Source of the DNA: Gammaproteobacteria bacterium
Lineage (GTDB): Bacteria; Pseudomonadota; Gammaproteobacteria; Pseudomonadales; Pseudomonadaceae
NCBI GenBank assembly: GCA_012719655.1
Contig: JAAXZZ010000141.1
Span: 1-44,720, forward strand
Reading direction: 5' to 3'
DNA: 44,720 nucleotides
Position 1 is the stretch's first letter. Each line of letters begins with the position of its first letter. The position numbers and the translations under genes are program-made. This document shows, piece after piece, positions 284 through 31,594 of the stretch. Below the pieces are notes generated by a model. It was not told the origin of the DNA, did no database searches, and saw only the letters and a list, made by a program, of their open reading frames with translations.

Positions 284-2230
284 CTATTTCTTTAGTTCAA
301 CCGTAAACGCACTGACCAGCTGGCTGAGTTCATCGGCCATACTGATCATCTCCTCACTAATGTGAGTAATGCTGCGTACCGACTGCGCATTGTGGGTACT
401 GGCATTGGCGATATCGCGCAAAGCAATCACCACTTGGCTGCTGGCGGTTTTTTGTTGGCGTGTTGATAAAGAAATTTGTTGTGCAGCATTGCTGGTGCGA
501 CTCGCGGCTTGTACCAACTGTTCCAAGTCTTCAGCGGTTTCTTGACTGACCTGCATGCCCAATTGAATGGAGCTCGCGCCCTTTTCTGAGGTGATCACCA
601 AGCGGTTAATTGAGTCTTGGATTTCTTGGATGCGGTCCTCGATTTCATGGGTGGAGTCCGTCACGCTGTCGGCAAGACGGCGAATTTCACTGGCCACCAC
701 CGAGAAGCGCTTACCTGACTCGCCGGCACTGGACGCCTCTAATGCGGCATTAAACGCAATCAATTTGGTTTGATCAGCCAGTGTATTGATTAAATCCATC
801 ACCTTGCTGATTTCTTTAGATTTACGCCCCAATTGCACAATTTCTTGCAGACTGTTTTCACTGTCATGGTGAATATCCGCCATACGCAACTGCAAGTGCT
901 GCATGGCATCGGCACCTTTCTTACTGCTTTCTAAGGTTAAATTGGCGACATCCACCACCGACTGCGAATGGTCAGCAATTTGTGTTGAGGAGGCTGAGAG
1001 CTCTTCCATGGTCGAAGTGATTTCCGCCACAGACGAAGACATTTGCTCCACAGCGGCGGCCATCGACTGACTGACTTCTTGCTGTCGATCCGTGTTACGA
1101 CTGACTAAGCCTGCGGTATGAGCTAAGTGATCGGCTGTTTCTGAGAGACGGCTAGAACTGCGCAGCACACCGCTGATGGCAAGGGCTAAGCGTTCCAGCA
1201 AGCTGTTGGTCTGCGCGGCCAATTCACCCAGCTCTGCTTCATCGGTTGTCTGTAAGCGTTGTGATAAATCCAGAGTGCGCGAAATGTATTTCAGCTGTTC
1301 TTGGAAGTGATCAAGTGGCGAGGTCAGTGCGCGCGTTAGCCACAACACTAGCATTGCACCAGCGAATAACACGGCGGCCGTTAATAACAGCAGCTGCTTG
1401 AGTAACTCTGTCTGAACGGCTTGCACTTCTTGGGCATCAACCAAGAGCAAAAAATGCCAGTCAGTGCCCTCAACTTGTGTTGCCGAAGCAAGCCACTGGC
1501 GGTCATTAAAGTTGACATACTGCAAGGCTGAATCGGTGACATTATAGTCTGGCAATACTTGCGCTAAACTTTTTTGCTGCAGAGATGCATCACTGTGAGC
1601 CAGAATTTTTTGCTCGCCATCAAACATCAACAGTTGACTGCTCCAACGCATTTTCAGCTTGAGCAGCTCATCAACAATCATCGAAATATAGATATCACCG
1701 CCAACAACCTGTTGGGAATCCTCCTGTAAAGGAACCGCCAAAGTTGCGGTCAAATTTCCAGTTAATGCATCAGGATAAGTAGAGGTTAAAATCAAACCAT
1801 TTGCTTGTTGCGCTTGCATAAACCAAGGGCGCTTACGTGGATCAAAGCCTTGCGGCACATCAATGGCAGGGCTTGATTGAATAAACTGCCCCTGACTGGT
1901 TCCTAAGTACAGCAGACTATAACCACCCGCCTCGCGCCCCGTGGTCAGCATGGTTTGCCACTGTTTTACATCCCCTGATTGCACGGGCAAGTAATGCGCC
2001 AAAGCCAATATCTGCTGTTTTTTCGCCTCAAGCCATTGTTTGGCTAACAAGTTCGTCTGCTCTAAACCACCCTGCATCTCACTCTGCACTGCACGGGTGG
2101 ACTCTTGCTCCAGTAAACGACTGGCCAGCAGGCTGAGCATCAATAACGCGACCAGCATTAAGGCAATAAATGACAGTAAGAATTTTTTCTGCAGCGCTTG
2201 TTTGCGCCACCAATGCACCATACCTTGCAT
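284..2230 (-). CDS. Methyl-accepting chemotaxis protein (periplasmic Cache-like sensor, HAMP, MCP signalling domain)
   Basis: ORF 284..2314; internal ATG (MQGMVHWW) at 2230 preferred because the upstream extension overlaps the neighbouring gene. N-terminal TM, sensor, TM, HAMP, then the tip LINTLADQTKLIAFNAALEASSAGESGKRFSVVASEIRRLA. Confidence 0.9.
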   Translation of the reverse strand: MQGMVHWWRKQALQKKFLLSFIALMLVALLMLSLLASRLLEQESTRAVQSEMQGGLEQTNLLAKQWLEAKKQQILALAHYLPVQSGDVKQWQTMLTTGREAGGYSLLYLGTSQGQFIQSSPAIDVPQGFDPRKRPWFMQAQQANGLILTSTYPDALTGNLTATLAVPLQEDSQQVVGGDIYISMIVDELLKLKMRWSSQLLMFDGEQKILAHSDASLQQKSLAQVLPDYNVTDSALQYVNFNDRQWLASATQVEGTDWHFLLLVDAQEVQAVQTELLKQLLLLTAAVLFAGAMLVLWLTRALTSPLDHFQEQLKYISRTLDLSQRLQTTDEAELGELAAQTNSLLERLALAISGVLRSSSRLSETADHLAHTAGLVSRNTDRQQEVSQSMAAAVEQMSSSVAEITSTMEELSASSTQIADHSQSVVDVANLTLESSKKGADAMQHLQLRMADIHHDSENSLQEIVQLGRKSKEISKVMDLINTLADQTKLIAFNAALEASSAGESGKRFSVVASEIRRLADSVTDSTHEIEDRIQEIQDSINRLVITSEKGASSIQLGMQVSQETAEDLEQLVQAASRTSNAAQQISLSTRQQKTASSQVVIALRDIANASTHNAQSVRSITHISEEMISMADELSQLVSAFTVELKK

Positions 2231-2231
2231 G

Positions 2232-4277
2232 TTATACGTCCTGTTTGTTGGTTTGACTGCTCTGCTCTTCAACATGAGACGGCTCGTCTTGATGAAACTC
2301 ACAAACCAAATCACTCAAATCTTGCGACATACTAATCATTTCTTCACTGATTTGCGTGATGTTGCGCACTGACAGAGCATTATGACTACTGGCATTGGCA
2401 ATATCACGTAAGGCAATCACCACCTGGCTGCTGGCGGTTTTTTGCTGGCGTGTTGATAGAGAGATTTGCTGTGCAGCACTACTGGTTCGACTGGCCGCTT
2501 GCACCAATTCATTCAGATCCTCAGCCGTTTCCTGGCTGACTTGCATGCCCAACTGAATTGAGCTGGCACCTTTTTCCGAAGTGATCACCAAGCGGTTAAT
2601 TGCGTCTTGGATTTCTTGGATGCGGTCCTCGATTTCATGGGTGGAGTCCGTCACGCTGTCGGCAAGACGGCGGATTTCACTGGCCACTACCGAGAAGCGC
2701 TTACCTGATTCGCCAGCACTGGATGCTTCTAGCGCCGCATTAAAAGCAATCAATTTAGTTTGATCGGCCAGCGTATTGATTAAATCCATCACCTTGCTGA
2801 TTTCTTTGGATTTACGCCCCAGTTGCACAATTTCTTGCAGGCTGTTTTCGCTGTCATGATGGATATCAGCCATGCGCAACTGTAAATGTTGCATGGCCGC
2901 CGCACCTTTTTTACTGCTGTCCAAAGTCAGACTGGCAACATCCACCACCGATTGTGAGTGATCGGCAATTTGCGTTGAGGACGCTGATAGTTCTTCCATG
3001 GTCGAGGTAATCTCAGCCACTGAAGAAGACATTTCTTCCACAGCCGCCGCCATCGACTGGGTCACTTCTTGTTGTCGATCCGTATTGCGATTGACCAGCC
3101 CGGCGGTAAGGGCTAAGTTATTTGCCGTTTCAGTCAGGCGACTAGAGCCGTGCTGCACCCCCCTGATGGCAAAGGATAAACGTTCCAACAAGGTATTGGT
3201 CTGTGCGGCAAGCTCACCCAACTCGGCCTTATCCTCGGTCTGCAAGCGCTTGGATAAGTTAAGCGTGCGAGTAATCTCCACCAATTGCTGTTGAAACAGC
3301 TGTAGCGGCCGACTGAGTGACACAGCCAACGGATACAACAACACCAGGCTCACCAATAGCAATCCAGCACCGATCAATAGAGACTGGTACAACTGCTGCT
3401 CAATGGGCAGCATAAAATCACTGCGCGGCACTTCAACTACTAAATAGCGCTGCAAGTCTGCCAACCAGACCACGCCGACAAAGAGTTGCTGCCCTTTATA
3501 GGTGATTTCTCGAACCTGCGCTTTATGCTGGTTGAGCAGCGTCTGTAATTGATCTGAGGCCCCTAGATCATTGATCAAGGCATCGTCGGCTCGGACTTCA
3601 ACCAGCCCATCTTTATTGGCCAAAGACGCTCTGCCATGCTCACCTAAACGGTAGGAGCTGATCATCTTAGCCAACTGCAACATATCCAAACCAACACCGG
3701 CTACGCTAACAGGCTCACCATTGCTGTTGACTGCACTACCGGTGTAGTTAACGAACATCTGCAACTGTGTGCCAGTAAAAGCATTAGTGTCTAAGTTGAG
3801 CTCATAGGGCAATTGACTGGCTAAATAATTGAAGTACCAAGCATCCTGGGTATTTTCACGCTGGATGCGGCGGCTGTTAAATTCGCCATTCTTAAAGTGA
3901 TAATAATTAATCGTACTGCCATCATTGCCTGCTAGAAACACCGCGCCTGCATTTAACTGCTGGCTTATCACTGCCATTTCTTCAACAAGCAAGGGCAACT
4001 CAGCCTCGGACATCCCTCTCTGTATCCAGCGCTGAACGAAGGAGTTCGACGCCAGACTGCGTGACACTTGTAAACTCGGAGTTAATTGTAAAGCCACTTC
4101 AGCGCCGAGATGCTGTAACTGCGCCGGCAGTTCATATTCGAGCAAACTTTGCACTCGACTCTTGGCATAAAAACCTGACTGCAAAACTAAGGTTAAGCCG
4201 GTCATCACCGCAAAAAGCACACCAAAAGACAGGAATAAACGTAAGCGTAAAGACAATTGATTCCAAAAAGTTCGCAT
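2232..4277 (-). CDS. Methyl-accepting chemotaxis protein, tandem paralogue
   Basis: ORF 2232..4364; start at MRTFWNQLSLRLRLFLSFGVLF (4277) preferred. Signalling domain almost identical to the adjacent MCP, sensor domain different. Confidence 0.9.
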   Translation of the reverse strand: MRTFWNQLSLRLRLFLSFGVLFAVMTGLTLVLQSGFYAKSRVQSLLEYELPAQLQHLGAEVALQLTPSLQVSRSLASNSFVQRWIQRGMSEAELPLLVEEMAVISQQLNAGAVFLAGNDGSTINYYHFKNGEFNSRRIQRENTQDAWYFNYLASQLPYELNLDTNAFTGTQLQMFVNYTGSAVNSNGEPVSVAGVGLDMLQLAKMISSYRLGEHGRASLANKDGLVEVRADDALINDLGASDQLQTLLNQHKAQVREITYKGQQLFVGVVWLADLQRYLVVEVPRSDFMLPIEQQLYQSLLIGAGLLLVSLVLLYPLAVSLSRPLQLFQQQLVEITRTLNLSKRLQTEDKAELGELAAQTNTLLERLSFAIRGVQHGSSRLTETANNLALTAGLVNRNTDRQQEVTQSMAAAVEEMSSSVAEITSTMEELSASSTQIADHSQSVVDVASLTLDSSKKGAAAMQHLQLRMADIHHDSENSLQEIVQLGRKSKEISKVMDLINTLADQTKLIAFNAALEASSAGESGKRFSVVASEIRRLADSVTDSTHEIEDRIQEIQDAINRLVITSEKGASSIQLGMQVSQETAEDLNELVQAASRTSSAAQQISLSTRQQKTASSQVVIALRDIANASSHNALSVRNITQISEEMISMSQDLSDLVCEFHQDEPSHVEEQSSQTNKQDV

Positions 4278-4385
4278 TGCTGATGCCTTCCGCTGAGTAA
4301 ATATTGATGATGTTGGCAAAATTACCGTTATAGCCATGACTAAAGCAAGGACATTCATTGGCACAAGCCATTTCTTATCCCAGAA

Positions 4386-7988: not shown

Positions 7989-10280
7989 ATGCACGCTGCT
8001 AAACCCTTATATGATTATCCCAAGTACTGGGCTGAATGCTTTGGTCCTGCTCCTTTCTTACCCACTTCACGTGAAGAAATGGATCAGTTAGGTTGGGATT
8101 CTTGTGATGTCATCATTGTTACCGGTGACGCTTATGTCGATCACCCCTCTTTTGGTATGGCTGTGATTGGCCGTGTGCTGGAAGCCCAAGGGTTTCGCGT
8201 CGGCATTATCAGCCAACCCAACTGGCGCAATAAAGATGACTTTATGCAACTGGGTGAGCCTAACCTATTTTTTGGCGTGGCAGCGGGCAATATGGATTCA
8301 ATGATCAACCGTTACACCGCTGATCGCAAAATCCGCTCCGATGATGCCTACACAGCGGGCGGCGAAGCAGGCAAGCGCCCTGACCGCGCCAGTTTGGTGT
8401 ACAGCCAGCGCTGTAAAGAAGCCTACAGTCATATTCCGGTTATTTTAGGTGGCATTGAGGCCTCATTACGTCGTATTGCACACTATGACTACTGGCAAGA
8501 CAGCGTACGCCGGTCGATCCTGATGGATGCTACCGCTGATATTCTGCTATACGGTAATGCTGAGCGCGCCATTGTTGAAGTCGCTCAGCGTTTGTCTTGG
8601 GGTGAGTCCATTGCACAGATTGACGATATTCGTGGCACTGCGTTTATCCGTCGTAATACTCCTAGTGATTGGTTTGAACTGGACTCTACGCGCATCGATC
8701 GCCCTGGCCGAGTTGATCGAATTATCAATCCTTATGTCAACACTCAAGACACCGAGGCTTGCGCAGTGGAACAGCAGGCGGCAGCGACCGCCAGCGAAGC
8801 CAATGACGTGCAAGTGGTGCAACTGATTGATCATCCACGCTTAACCCGTGAACGTACGGTCATTCGTATTCCGTCCTTTGAAAAAGTACGCAATGACCCT
8901 GTGCTCTATGCTCACGCGAACCGTGTTCTGCACTTAGAAACCAATCCAGGCAACGCCCGCGCCATTGTGCAGCGCCATGGCGATCAGGATATTTGGCTCA
9001 ATCCGCCGCCTATTCCATTGACCACAGAAGAAATGGACTATGTGTTTGGCCTACCCTATGCACGAGTACCTCACCCGAAGTACGGTAATGCAAAGATCCC
9101 AGCCTACGAAACCATTCGTTTCTCAGTCAATATTATGCGCGGCTGTTTTGGCGGTTGCACCTTCTGTTCAATTACCGAGCACGAAGGTCGTATTATTCAA
9201 AACCGTTCGCACGATTCTATTTTGCAAGAAATCGAAGACATGCGTGACAAGGTGCCGGGCTTTACCGGTGTTGTGTCTGATCTCGGCGGCCCTACGGCCA
9301 ATATGTACCGATTGGCCTGCAACAGCCCAGAGATTGAAGCGGCGTGTCGCAAACCCTCTTGCGTGTTCCCGGGGATTTGTCAAAACCTCAATACCGACCA
9401 TTCGTCGCTGATTGAACTGTATCGCAAAGCACGTGATATCCGCGGCGTAAAAAAAGTACTGATTGCTTCCGGCTTGCGCTATGACTTGGCCGTTGAATCA
9501 CCTGAGTATGTGCGTGAACTGGTCACTCATCACGTGGGTGGTTACTTGAAGATTGCTCCAGAGCACACCGAAGAAGGTCCGCTTGAGCACATGATGAAGC
9601 CCGGTATTGGCAGTTATGAACGCTTTCGCAAAATGTTTGAACGCTTCTCTAAAGAAGCAGGTAAAGAACAGTATTTAATCCCCTATTTTATTGCTGCTCA
9701 CCCAGGTACGACTGATAAAGACATGCTCAATTTGGCCTTATGGTTGAAAAGCAATAACTTCCGTGCCGACCAAGTGCAAGCGTTTTATCCATCACCCATG
9801 GCAACTGCTACGGCGATGTATCACTCTGGGAAAAACCCACTGCGCAAAGTAACCTACAAAAGTCCGGCGACGGAAATCGTCAAAAGCGAGGAACAGCGTC
9901 GCTTGCATAAAGCGTTCTTGCGCTATCACGATCCAAAATCCTGGCCACTGATTCGTGAAGCGTTAATTCGCATGGGCCGTGCTGATTTAATTGGTGACAG
10001 TAAAAATCATCTGATTCCTGCTCAGCAACCTGAAGCTGACGGTTATCGTAGTGCGCGCCGTAAAAACTCGACTCCAGCTAAAGGTGAGAAAACCGCGCGT
10101 CCATTGCTCACCCAGCACACTGGCTTACCGCCACGAGCGACAGGCGCAGCCGATGATAAGCCGCAGTGGCATAAGCGCGAGCAAGCTAAAGCCGCGGCTG
10201 AAGCAAAGCTACGTGCAGATAGAAGCAAGAAGCCTGCAGCGAAAGGTGGCAAGCGTAGCTCGCCGGCTAAACCGCGCTAG
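7989..10280 (+). CDS. ygiQ: YgiQ family radical SAM protein
   Basis: 763 aa; radical SAM cluster motif [17 protein letters not shown]-terminal [56 protein letters not shown]; basic C-terminal tail. Confidence 0.93.
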
Positions 10281-10381
10281 TCGTACATCTTTTTTGAAGT
10301 ACGGCGTATGATTTTTTGCCTTGCAAGGAATGCCCTCTCGATGCGTAGCGTTCACTCGAATGCAACATCACTGCTCATTGA

Positions 10382-10479
10382 GCAGCGTGTGGGTGACCTG
10401 GCAAGCGTAGTCATGGATGACGCAGCGCCCGAATCGAGACAGGATGTCTCGTGAGGGGTAAACGTCATTCACACACTGC
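10382..10479 (+). repeat. Structured repeat element, copy A (98 nt)
   Basis: Outer arms GCAGCGTGTGGGTGAC / GTCATTCACACACTGC; hairpin GTCA-TGGA-TGAC; hairpin CGAGAC-AGGAT-GTCTCG. Confidence 0.85.
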
Positions 10480-10527: not shown

Positions 10528-10626
10528 GTACTTCGGGGTAAGTGTTAATCCGTCGATGAACCCATCCAGGGTTCAACTCCGGCGTTCGCCATCCCTGGCT
10601 CACTCACCACACCCACCCCGAAGTAC
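10528..10626 (-). repeat. Structured repeat element, copy D (99 nt, inverted relative to the others)
   Basis: Perfect 12-bp arms GTACTTCGGGGT / ACCCCGAAGTAC; on the minus strand, hairpins GCCA-GGGA-TGGC and GAACCC-TGGAT-GGGTTC. Confidence 0.85.
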
Positions 10627-10730
10627 TCGTTGACCATTTACAGGGCTTGCACTATTGCAGCCTGAATAACTTGCATAGATGTTTAATGATCTAATCATTT
10701 TAAAAAGCCGTACTCCATATTGCCAAACAA

Positions 10731-10947
10731 CATCACTGACCAACGAGTATCTTGTTGCTGTCGCGACCAGCGCAGCCAGGGATGGCGCAGCCTCGAATCG
10801 GGTCAGGATGACCCGCTGAGAGAAAAGCGATAGCAACAAGGTACGGCATGCGCATATCGCTCTGGATACTCTACAATATTAAAGACACTCAGCCTATGCA
10901 TTGGACTGAGACTCTATCGCCGGCATGGCCAGCTCATACAGGGTTCA
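10731..10947 (+). repeat. Tandem direct repeat unit 1 (contains element B)
   Basis: CATCACTGACCAACGAGTATCTTGTTGCTGTCGC ... CAGCTCATACAGGGTTC is repeated about 221 bp downstream with scattered substitutions. Confidence 0.9.
10747..10844 (+). repeat. Structured repeat element, copy B (98 nt)
   Basis: Arms GTATCTTGTTGCTGTCGC / GCGATAGCAACAAGGTAC; hairpins GCCA-GGGA-TGGC and CGGGTC-AGGAT-GACCCG. Confidence 0.88.
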
Positions 10948-10950
10948 AAC

Positions 10951-11168
10951 ACATCACTGATCAATGAGTATCTTGTTGCTGTCGCGACCAGCGGAGCCAA
11001 GGATGGCGCAGCCTCGAATCGGGTCAGGATGACCCGTTGAGAGAAAAGCGACAGCAACAAGGTACGGCATGCGCATATCGCTCTGGATACTCTGCAATGT
11101 TAAAGACACTCAGCCTATGCATCGGATTAAAACGCAGTCGCTGGCATGGCCAGCTCATACAGGGTTCG
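10951..11168 (+). repeat. Tandem direct repeat unit 2 (contains element C)
   Basis: Near-copy of 10731..10947. Confidence 0.9.
10968..11065 (+). repeat. Structured repeat element, copy C (98 nt)
   Basis: Arms GTATCTTGTTGCTGTCGC / GCGACAGCAACAAGGTAC; hairpins GCCA-AGGA-TGGC and CGGGTC-AGGAT-GACCCG. Confidence 0.88.
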
Positions 11169-11199
11169 AAGCTCTGGTTGATCATGTGCAGGGTTTGTA

Positions 11200-12201
11200 C
11201 TATTGCAACTCAGCCAGAATTTCAAACGAACGCAAGCGATCAGCGTGCTCATACAAATCACAGGTAAAGATCAGCTCATCGGCTTGAGTATGCTGCAATA
11301 ACACCTGCATTTTCTGCTCAATCGTCTCAGCACTACCAATCATCGCCATGCTTAAAAACTCATTTACAGTCTGCTCCTCATGCGGCTTCCACAAGCCTTG
11401 CATACTCTCTACTGGCGGGCGCATCAGCATACTTTGACCACGGATCAAAGCCAAAATACGCTGATACGTCGTAGTCGCCAAATACTCCGCACGAGCATCC
11501 GTTTGCGCAGCAACCAAAGGAATGCCCAGCATCACATACGGCTTATCCAAAACAGGCGAAGGCTTAAAGTGACGACGATACAACTCAATCGCCTGCATCA
11601 TCATGCGTGGTGCAAAATGCGAAGCAAAAGAATACGGCAAGCCCTTCTGCGCCGCTAACTGCGCGCTAAATAAACTGGAGCCCAACAACCAAATCGGCAC
11701 ATGACTATCGACACCCGGCATCGCGATCACTGACTGACCTGAAACACGCGGGCCTAGAAATTTTTGCAACTCAGCCACATCTTCAGGAAAATCATCTGCA
11801 CTGCCGCTACGATCCCTACGCAACGCCCTTGCCGTTAATGGATCAGTACCCGACGCACGGCCAAGCCCCAAATCAATACGCCCCGGATACAATGCTGCTA
11901 ACGTACCAAACTGTTCAGCAATCACCAACGGAGCGTGATTAGGCAGCATCACTCCACCCGCACCCACTCGAATACGCTGCGTACCGGCCGCCAGATAACC
12001 AATCAACACGGACGTCGCCGAACTGACAATAGCATCCATATTGTGATGTTCAGCCACCCAAAAACGATTAAAACCTAAGGCTTCGACATGTTGAGCTAAA
12101 GCCAGTGAGCGCTGCAAAGCAGGCGCTGGACCTTGATCTGTATCTTTGCGCGAGGCCAAATCCAATACTGAAAAAGCCACCTTTTGCTGACGAATCATCA
12201 C
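11200..12201 (-). CDS. LLM class flavin-dependent oxidoreductase (bacterial luciferase-like monooxygenase)
   Basis: [114 protein letters not shown] is typical of the LLM family. Confidence 0.92.
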
Positions 12202-29474: not shown

Positions 29475-30353
29475 ATGGACCTTGCCAGCTTGCAAACTTT
29501 TATTGCCATCGCCGAACAGCGCAGTTTTTCTTTAGCCGGCGAGCGCTTGCATGTCACCCAACCGGCCATCAGTAAGCGCATTGCCAGTCTTGAAGAGCAG
29601 CTGGGCGTACGCTTGTTTGATCGCGTGGGCCGCGAAACTCGCTTAACCGAAGCCGGGCAAGCGCTATTGCCGCGCGCCTATCGTATCGTCAATGAACTGG
29701 ATGATGCGCGCCGCGCGTTAAGTAATCTCAGCGGTATGGTCAGCGGGCCTTTAAGTATCGCAACCAGCCACCACATTGGCCTACGTCGCCTACCACCGCT
29801 GCTGCGCGCCTTCACGAAGCGCTATCCAGAGGTGATGCTGGATATTCGCTTTCTTGATTCAGAAGTGGCTTACGCCGATGTACTCCACGGGCGTTGTGAG
29901 TTAGCCATTATTACCCTGTCACCGCACTGCGAAGCTCCACTGCAAGCGGTCAAGGTTTGGCAAGATAATCTGGATTTTGTCGTCGCCCCCGATCACCCGC
30001 TGGCACAGCGTAAGCGCATTCGTCTTGCTGATTTATGCGCTTATCCCGCCGTATTTCCAGGCAGTCATACTTTTACTCGTAAAATCGCTTTGCAGCTGTT
30101 TGAGCAAGCCGGTCTCACCCCCAATATCAGCATGAGTACCAACTATATGGAAACCATTAAAATGATGGTCTCCATTGGTTTGGCTTGGAGTGTCTTGCCG
30201 CACAGCATGCTGGATGAGTCAGTGGTGCGCTTGCCTATTAGTGATGCTCATTTGAGTCGCGATTTGGGCTATATCGTACATAGGGAACGAACACTGTCGA
30301 ATGCCGCGCAGGCGTTTATGCAGATGCTCAGCAACACCGATAAAGCACAGTGA
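29475..30353 (+). CDS. LysR family transcriptional regulator
   Basis: N-terminal HTH MDLASLQTFIAIAEQRSFSLAGERLHVTQPAISKRIASLEEQLGVRLFDRVGRETRLTEAG; divergent from leuC. Confidence 0.94.
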   Translation: MDLASLQTFIAIAEQRSFSLAGERLHVTQPAISKRIASLEEQLGVRLFDRVGRETRLTEAGQALLPRAYRIVNELDDARRALSNLSGMVSGPLSIATSHHIGLRRLPPLLRAFTKRYPEVMLDIRFLDSEVAYADVLHGRCELAIITLSPHCEAPLQAVKVWQDNLDFVVAPDHPLAQRKRIRLADLCAYPAVFPGSHTFTRKIALQLFEQAGLTPNISMSTNYMETIKMMVSIGLAWSVLPHSMLDESVVRLPISDAHLSRDLGYIVHRERTLSNAAQAFMQMLSNTDKAQ

Positions 30354-30413
30354 TAGCGGATGCAGCGCACTCAAGGGTTGCTGCTATGAGGCTACTTAAG
30401 AAATCTGCCGGTG

Positions 30414-30430
30414 GCGGGCCAGCGGCCCGC
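30414..30430. repeat. REP-like GC-rich palindrome
   Basis: GCGGGCC-AGC-GGCCCGC perfect 7-bp stem with a 3-nt loop; reverse strand reads GGGAGCGCGGGCCGCTGGCCCGC. Confidence 0.5.
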
Positions 30431-30481
30431 GCTCCCAGAAGGACACATGTACATTTAATCAACACTACTAATGATCAACAA

Positions 30482-30580
30482 GCACTGCGCTGTATCTGTG
30501 ACAAGCGCAGCCATGGATAGCGCAGCGCCCGAATCGAGACAGGATGTCTCGTTGAGGGAATAACAGTTACAGCGCAGTGC
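30482..30580 (+). repeat. Structured repeat element, copy E (99 nt), remote from A-D
   Basis: Arms GCACTGCGCTGTATCTGT / ACAGTTACAGCGCAGTGC; loop TGGA in AGCCATGGATAGC; hairpin CGAGAC-AGGAT-GTCTCG. Confidence 0.87.
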
Positions 30581-30604: not shown

Positions 30605-31594
30605 TCAAGCCGGCTGCTGCTTCAGATACTCAGTGTGCTGCAACTGCCCCACCGCAAAACCAAATAACTGATCAATCACATCGCAGTCCGTCACTTTACG
30701 TAATTGATTAAACAACAGCTGCGCTTCAGGATAATTACGCATCAACATTGCCAGCCATTGTTTTAGCCGCCCCGGCGCACTGCGCGGCAGCTGAAATAAA
30801 CGCACTTGCCGCCAGAATTCACGCAACATCGGCTGCAACTCTTGCCAAGTTTTCAACTGATACTCAATACCATCACGCGCACAAGCGATTTGCTGAGCCA
30901 AGTCAGGTCGCGACACCAAACCACGCCCTAGCATCACATGATCAACGCCACTGATTTCACGGCAACGATACCAATCATCTAAGGTCCAAATATCGCCATT
31001 GGCAAACACTGGAATTCTCACTACATCCTGTACTTTCGCCACCCACTCCCAGTGGGCCGGCGGTTTATAGCCATCCACCTTAGTGCGTGCATGCACCACG
31101 ATTTGCGCTGAACCGCCAGCGGCTAAAGCCCGTGCACAATCCATAGCGCCATCAGGGCTGTCATAGCCTAAACGCATCTTAGTGGTCAGCGGAATATGGG
31201 CTGGCATACCGGCGCGCACCGCCTCAACAATCTTAAATAACACCTCAGGCTCACGCAGCAAAATAGCGCCACCACAAGAATTATTCACCGTTTTCGATGG
31301 GCAGCCAAAGTTCAAATCAACCACTGGTGCTCCCAGCTCACAGGCTTTAGCGGCATTATCAGCCATCGCCTGGGGATCAGATCCGAGTAACTGCACCCGC
31401 AATGGCGTACCCGCAGGTGTTTGAGCATCCTGCGCAAGCTCCGGTGCTAAACGGTGGTAAGTACGACTGGGCAACAACTGATCCGTGATACGCACAAACT
31501 CAGTCACACACCAATCAATACCGCCCTGCTCGGTCAGCACATCGCGCATAATATGATCGACCAAACCTTCCATCGGCGCTAAAGCAATTTGCAC
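30605..31594 (-). CDS. dusC: tRNA dihydrouridine(16) synthase
   Basis: [57 protein letters not shown] Dus motif; DusC-like N-terminus. Confidence 0.93.

Follow-up and report, generated by a model that had tools for sequence, protein, structure and literature searches.

An intergenic TwoAYGGAY-like repeat with a variable, self-complementary outer stem and two GGA hairpins in Gammaproteobacteria: a candidate CsrA/RsmA-binding element

In PMC2864571, TwoAYGGAY (RF01731, clan CL00106) figures as a probable RNA from the human gut, from Gammaproteobacteria, and from Clostridiales. It was described as featuring a stem with tandem GA, two matches to the CsrA motif, and a poorly conserved external stem, its function being unknown and CsrA binding being predicted in print (PMC4333381). 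GGA hairpin loops are also known from the CsrA-sequestering small RNAs CsrB, CsrC, RsmX, RsmY, and RsmZ; these derive from a single dedicated sRNA gene or a small number of them, and each has numerous GGA sites. Furthermore, RsmU of Xanthomonas represents an RsmA-sequestering RNA originating from the 3′-UTR of an mRNA (PMC7694677). At the DNA level, REP/BIME sequences associated with RAYT (Y1) transposases are intergenic palindromes of high copy number, arranged in arrays of alternating orientation.

Five copies of an element of approximately 100 nt were identified in the window, i.e., the whole stretch of 44,720 nucleotides analysed here (Table 1), representing contig C113 of a source genome of 2.7 Mb in 249 contigs. 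The nearest named relative of this organism is Denitrificimonas caeni DSM 24390, with a YgiQ protein that is 96% identical. A single covariance model (R1), for which 23 copies served as the basis, recovers all five, including copy D on the minus strand; they reside at the places given in the first-pass annotation, and all possess self-complementary outer arms. The conserved flanks described there are real on the 5′ (..ACACCnATGATCAAtGA) as well as on the 3′ side (GGCATGCGCA..), and copies B and C have a common left arm and differ by a G-U to G-C change within the stem. The arms of copy D, previously given as 12 nt, actually extend over 18 nt and pair at 18 of 18 positions on the minus strand (G-U allowed), and the stem of copy A includes one mismatch and two G-U pairs within the 16 nt quoted before. 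Copies A, D, B, and C form a cluster between the convergent ygiQ and luciferase-like genes.

Table 1. Positions of the element copies, their parts, and the neighbouring genes in the window.
Feature	Positions	Strand	Remarks
YgiQ-type radical SAM gene	7989..10280	+	Pfam PF08497/PF11842/PF04055; left neighbour of cluster A-D-B-C
Conserved 5′ flank of copy A	10363..10381	+	CAACATCACTGCTCATTGA; precedes the majority of copies in the genus
Copy A	10382..10479	+	R1 match E=7.6e-18; folding z -4.5; outer stem GCAGCGTGTGGGTGAC../..GTCATTCACACACTGC; loops CAUGGAUG and CAGGAUG
First GGA hairpin of copy A	10404..10426 (approximate limits)	+	GC, GA-type internal loop, GUC-AUGGAU-GAC, ..GC
Second GGA hairpin of copy A	10427..10459 (approximate limits)	+	CCC-[GAAU]-CGAGAC-AGGAU-GUCUCG-..-GGG
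Copy D (M type)	10528..10626	-	R1 match E=2.3e-13; folding z -8.0; 18-bp outer stem; loops CAGGGAUG and CUGGAUG
Tandem duplication	10730-10949 / 10951-11170		220 bp, 92% identical; holds copies B and C
Copy B	10747..10844	+	R1 match; in unit 1 of the duplication
Copy C	10968..11065	+	R1 match E=2.1e-21; folding z -8.5; in unit 2 of the duplication
Luciferase-like monooxygenase gene	11200..12201	-	Pfam PF00296; right, convergent neighbour of cluster A-D-B-C
LysR-type gene	29475-30353	+	flanks copy E; convergent with the Dus gene
Copy E	30482..30580	+	R1 match E=5.9e-21; used for ortholog comparison
Dus gene	30605-31594	-	flanks copy E; convergent with the LysR-type gene

Ordinary REP-like palindromes coexist with the element, and the source genome encodes a Y1_Tnp gene on contig C129. 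One such palindrome, of the Pseudomonas type (GGCGGGCCAGCGGCCCGCGCTCCC, positions 30410-30440), adjoins copy E, and similar ones adjoin copies on contig C54 and in genome G009. Elsewhere in the window, two neighbouring minus-strand ORFs of 676 and 710 aa (284-4364) are probably paralogues, as judged from a common 300-nt repeat with 79% identity (305-604 / 2295-2594). At the end of the cluster, a weak Rfam match to rpfG (11129-11201, minus strand; 21 bits, E=0.054, cut-off 75.9) is probably due to chance.

The consensus fold of the element comprises an outer stem of 18 bp, which closes a three-way junction bearing two small hairpins. The first hairpin consists of GC, a GA-rich internal loop, three base pairs, and the loop ANGGAU, and the second of CCC/GGG, the internal loop GAAU/UUGA, six base pairs, and, in the P type, the loop AGGAU; in the second hairpin of copy A, the loop is constant and the stem covaries. 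Folding of the GGA strand of the window copies yielded z-scores between -4.5 and -8.5, and none of 200 shuffles was as stable. Among the 23 copies, standard pairs account for 97% of the pair cells (30-49% with the 3′ side slid), and changes on both sides were detected for 23 out of 32 pairs, compared to 14.7 ± 1.7 in shuffles; within the outer stem, this applies to 17 out of 18 pairs. Conservation is highest in the GGA loops and the internal loops. Mean pairwise identity, determined for 104 distinct P-type copies, amounted to 0.59 for the left and 0.55 for the right arm, 0.69-0.75 for the core, and 0.29 for shuffled arms. The first-pass annotation was thus largely right in that variable arms remain paired and are more diverse than the conserved part; that they vary completely was overstated, since the arms follow a common degenerate consensus. 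Many copies group into arm subfamilies. GGA is present in both halves of 274 out of 290 copies of the genus, approximately 5% lacking it in one half, according to a simple count which in some M-type copies may have taken a neighbouring GGA. In genome G345, the corresponding value is 98 out of 100 copies, CANGGANG occurring 99 times in loop 1 and 95 times in loop 2, and in the second genus considered below, all 18 outer pairs are double-changed, with 100% pairing in the 14 seed copies.

This architecture resembles that of TwoAYGGAY: both feature paired short hairpins with (A)NGGAU loops, apparently a GA-type internal loop in the first hairpin, and a long external stem of unconserved sequence, and both occur in Gammaproteobacteria. 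The element possesses two hairpins with AYGGAY-type loops, the second loop of the P type being the pentaloop AGGAU, and a GNA/GNA-type internal loop, which may correspond to the tandem GA in one stem of TwoAYGGAY, can be read from the letters of the first hairpin. However, its second hairpin has a conserved internal loop of its own, and the element is dispersed, with dozens to ~100 copies per genome at intergenic positions and in alternating arrays. No Rfam family matched the window at the gathering threshold, only chance-level matches were obtained for the cluster at E<=10, and neither the window copies nor those of G000 gave a match to TwoAYGGAY, the gathering cut-off of which is 43 bits. 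Below this threshold, RF01731 aligns end to end with several copies, and G607 contains two members of the wider class that exceed it (49.1 and 47.7 bits). The element is accordingly regarded as a divergent, high-copy relative of TwoAYGGAY having the same architecture, the window copies themselves lying outside strict family membership. In comparison to the CsrB-type sRNAs, with which it has in common the GGA hairpin loops, here read as CsrA sites, it is dispersed in many copies, each having two sites, and shows no recognised promoter and no Rfam match. RsmU offers a precedent for RsmA sequestration by a 3′-UTR-derived RNA, but represents a single locus and no repeat. REP/BIME sequences are similar in location, copy number, and array structure, whereas the element differs from them in sequence and size and by its compensatory arms and fixed GGA loops. 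The repeat was not described in the literature covered on dispersed CsrA-binding repeats and Marinobacter palindromes (most subscription journals being outside its scope).

Within the outer stem, G-U and A-C combinations differ widely in frequency on the strand that carries GGA. When 292 distinct copies are read on the GGA strand, 525 cells contain G-U/U-G and 44 contain A-C/C-A; after collapsing to 44 arm clusters, 67 and 14 cells remain, G-U prevailing in 32 clusters and A-C in four. In G345, 72 G-U cells were counted versus nine A-C cells, so that the ratios are 12:1 for the genus and 8:1 for G345. This strand-specific excess reflects selection on one folded single strand, which, as far as the sequences tell, is most simply RNA. 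Together with the compensatory changes, it backs the suggestion of the first-pass annotation that the stem is maintained for RNA function. In ssDNA, too, G-T is tolerated better, and the G-U bias alone is therefore no proof of RNA; that a single strand folds is shown by the sequences, and that this strand is RNA rather than ssDNA we infer.

The history of the arms was followed at two orthologous loci. Four genomes carry the element at the LysR/dusC locus, namely G000, G001, G009, and, with two copies, G005; the arms at these orthologous sites are homologous to one another and differ by compensated changes. Genomes G008, G011, G006, and G007 are clearly empty and devoid of an arm hairpin, and R1 found no match at this locus in G004, with an unrelated longer spacer, and in G002, with a run of N nearby. 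Empty sites without an arm hairpin and homologous arms at occupied sites indicate that, in the genus of the window, the arms travel with the element, contrary to the idea that they derive from the insertion target. At the xth/rph locus, the model R2 (see below) finds the element in 20 out of 30 species of the second genus. Inspection by eye revealed a simple hairpin in the element-free loci L358, L362, and L376, and sequences resembling decayed remnants in L378, L367, and L381; in this genus, pre-existing hairpins at the rph locus may have contributed to the arms. Inserted within the element core in L373 and L377, to the left of the rph gene, is a sequence of ~80 nt (..CCGGCCAGCAATCA.AGATTGCTGTCGTTCG..), possibly another mobile repeat.

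The rph locus also bears on the question of whether the complementarity of the arms is owed mainly to events in the DNA, namely templated correction of the palindrome and its inversion, instead of selection for RNA pairing. Here, 42% of the sites differ in the arms and 18% in the core, pairwise (non-independent) comparisons that stay paired include 1291 double versus 122 single changes, and G-U occupies only 8 out of 360 cells. Moreover, L370 and L373 have one and the same element in opposite orientations at this place, with minus-strand matches over 71 nt (96%) and 40 nt (100%). Given these mostly double changes and the in-place inversion, DNA-level correction and flipping of inverted repeats probably contribute alongside selection. 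As the main cause of arm maintenance they appear rather unlikely, because pure DNA correction is strand-blind and the G-U excess on one strand counts against it; covariation also extends to the stems of the small hairpins. This explanation concerns the maintenance of the arms and is compatible with a function as CsrA-binding RNA.

In the source genome, R1 yielded 83 matches at E<=1, corresponding to ~80 copies, and between 11 and at least 69 scored matches were obtained in each of 11 other sampled genomes of the genus, the remaining genera of the family being essentially empty. Weaker matches in another genus of the order (f22 g40, the second genus) led to the construction of the model R2, which detected 104 copies in G345 and 32 in G287. 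At E<=1e-5, R2 matches were found in 51 out of 387 sampled Gammaproteobacteria, representing 46 out of 289 genera. Copies of this class possess copy-specific stems of ~28 bp or longer and have kept both GGA hairpins. P and M types frequently alternate in opposite orientation. At locus L187 (G004, 213500-221500), three near-identical tandem units of 456 nt, each of which holds a P and an M element, suggest recent array amplification in a genome with no detected Y1 transposase.

High copy number, tandem and alternating plus/minus arrays, unbiased orientation, the near-identical units of G004, and the tolerance of G-T in ssDNA would all fit a repeat acting at the DNA level, either REP/BIME- or MITE-like or moved by a nuclease whose substrate is the ssDNA hairpin. 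Transposition or repair chemistry would then keep the arms complementary, and the GGA loops would be marks for a protein unrelated to CsrA. We consider this unlikely. No match to Y1_Tnp (PF01797) was found in G004 despite its at least 69 copies, which also speaks against a RAYT/REP origin, and G345 shows no replichore strand bias, the origin being taken near base 1. In addition, both hairpin loops fit the CsrA motif across distant families, and TwoAYGGAY is catalogued as an RNA.

A codon-scored gene caller placed none of the elements within a gene. In G004, G007, G008, and G009, the gaps holding elements are convergent in 37, tandem in 24, and divergent in five cases (n=66), as opposed to 5, 62, and 39 for element-free gaps of at least 100 bp in the same stretches (n=106). 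For G345, the corresponding numbers are 19, 53, and 17 with and 6, 62, and 39 without elements. Relative to the upstream gene in tandem gaps, orientation is unbiased in the genus of the window (33 sense, 43 antisense) and only mildly biased in G345 (37 sense versus 20 antisense). Enrichment between convergent genes, long stable stems, and the simple hairpins at the same place in L358, L362, and L376 are features expected of a bidirectional transcription terminator or a stabiliser of mRNA 3′ ends with an incidental apical decoration. This function is nevertheless improbable: a U-tract does not follow the stem, many copies reside in tandem or divergent gaps, and the loops are the most conserved part. 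That the arms, differing from copy to copy, serve as copy-specific addresses or guides is hardly credible in view of their common consensus, their subfamilies, and their compensated conservation at orthologous loci; searches for trans targets gave no good match elsewhere in the window (best outside match with 3/18 mismatches), none for copy A among phages, and only two partial plasmid matches (E=0.8).

The reading we prefer, at a probability of roughly 0.6, is that of a divergent TwoAYGGAY-like intergenic element acting as a CsrA/RsmA-binding RNA, either within 3′-UTRs or on its own. The CsrA/RsmA dimer binds paired GGA hairpins. GGA occurs in the hairpin loops of the element in pairs, as in CsrA/RsmA-binding RNAs, in loops that resemble the CsrA SELEX consensus, and two csrA genes were identified in the source genome. 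Once single-stranded, most simply as RNA, the GGA-bearing strand would fold into the long outer stem with its three-way junction, and the two short loops would each display NGGAU to one half of the dimer. The letters of the outer stem would be free to drift under compensatory change, aided by inverted-repeat flipping, because only its pairing is required, while the GGA loops stay fixed. Exclusively intergenic copies, enriched between convergent 3′ ends and in either orientation, suggest transcription as part of 3′-UTR or read-through RNA, which may bind, sequester, or localise CsrA at gene ends. The main weakness of the proposed CsrA-binding role is an orientation bias weaker than expected for a purely 3′-UTR RNA. 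Outer stems of 28-34 near-perfect base pairs exceed the needs of a CsrA site, and the missing TwoAYGGAY match of the window copies, the failure to recognise a conserved promoter at the elements, and the copies with GGA in one half only likewise count against it.

The element provides context and a testable function for TwoAYGGAY, whose function has been unknown since 2010, and relatives of this family prove to be repeats abundant in no fewer than 46 of the gammaproteobacterial genera sampled. The arms represent a natural experiment on selection for RNA structure versus palindrome correction of DNA. Tentatively, and with more doubt than confidence, it is proposed that many Gammaproteobacteria may titrate much of their CsrA not by one or two dedicated sponge sRNAs but by dozens to hundreds of paired CsrA sites in dispersed 3′-UTR repeats at gene ends that proliferate and flip in place, TwoAYGGAY being the tip of this family. 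If the elements are indeed transcribed and bound by CsrA, they would add a large and hitherto overlooked number of CsrA sites to those counted in existing models of CsrA sponges.
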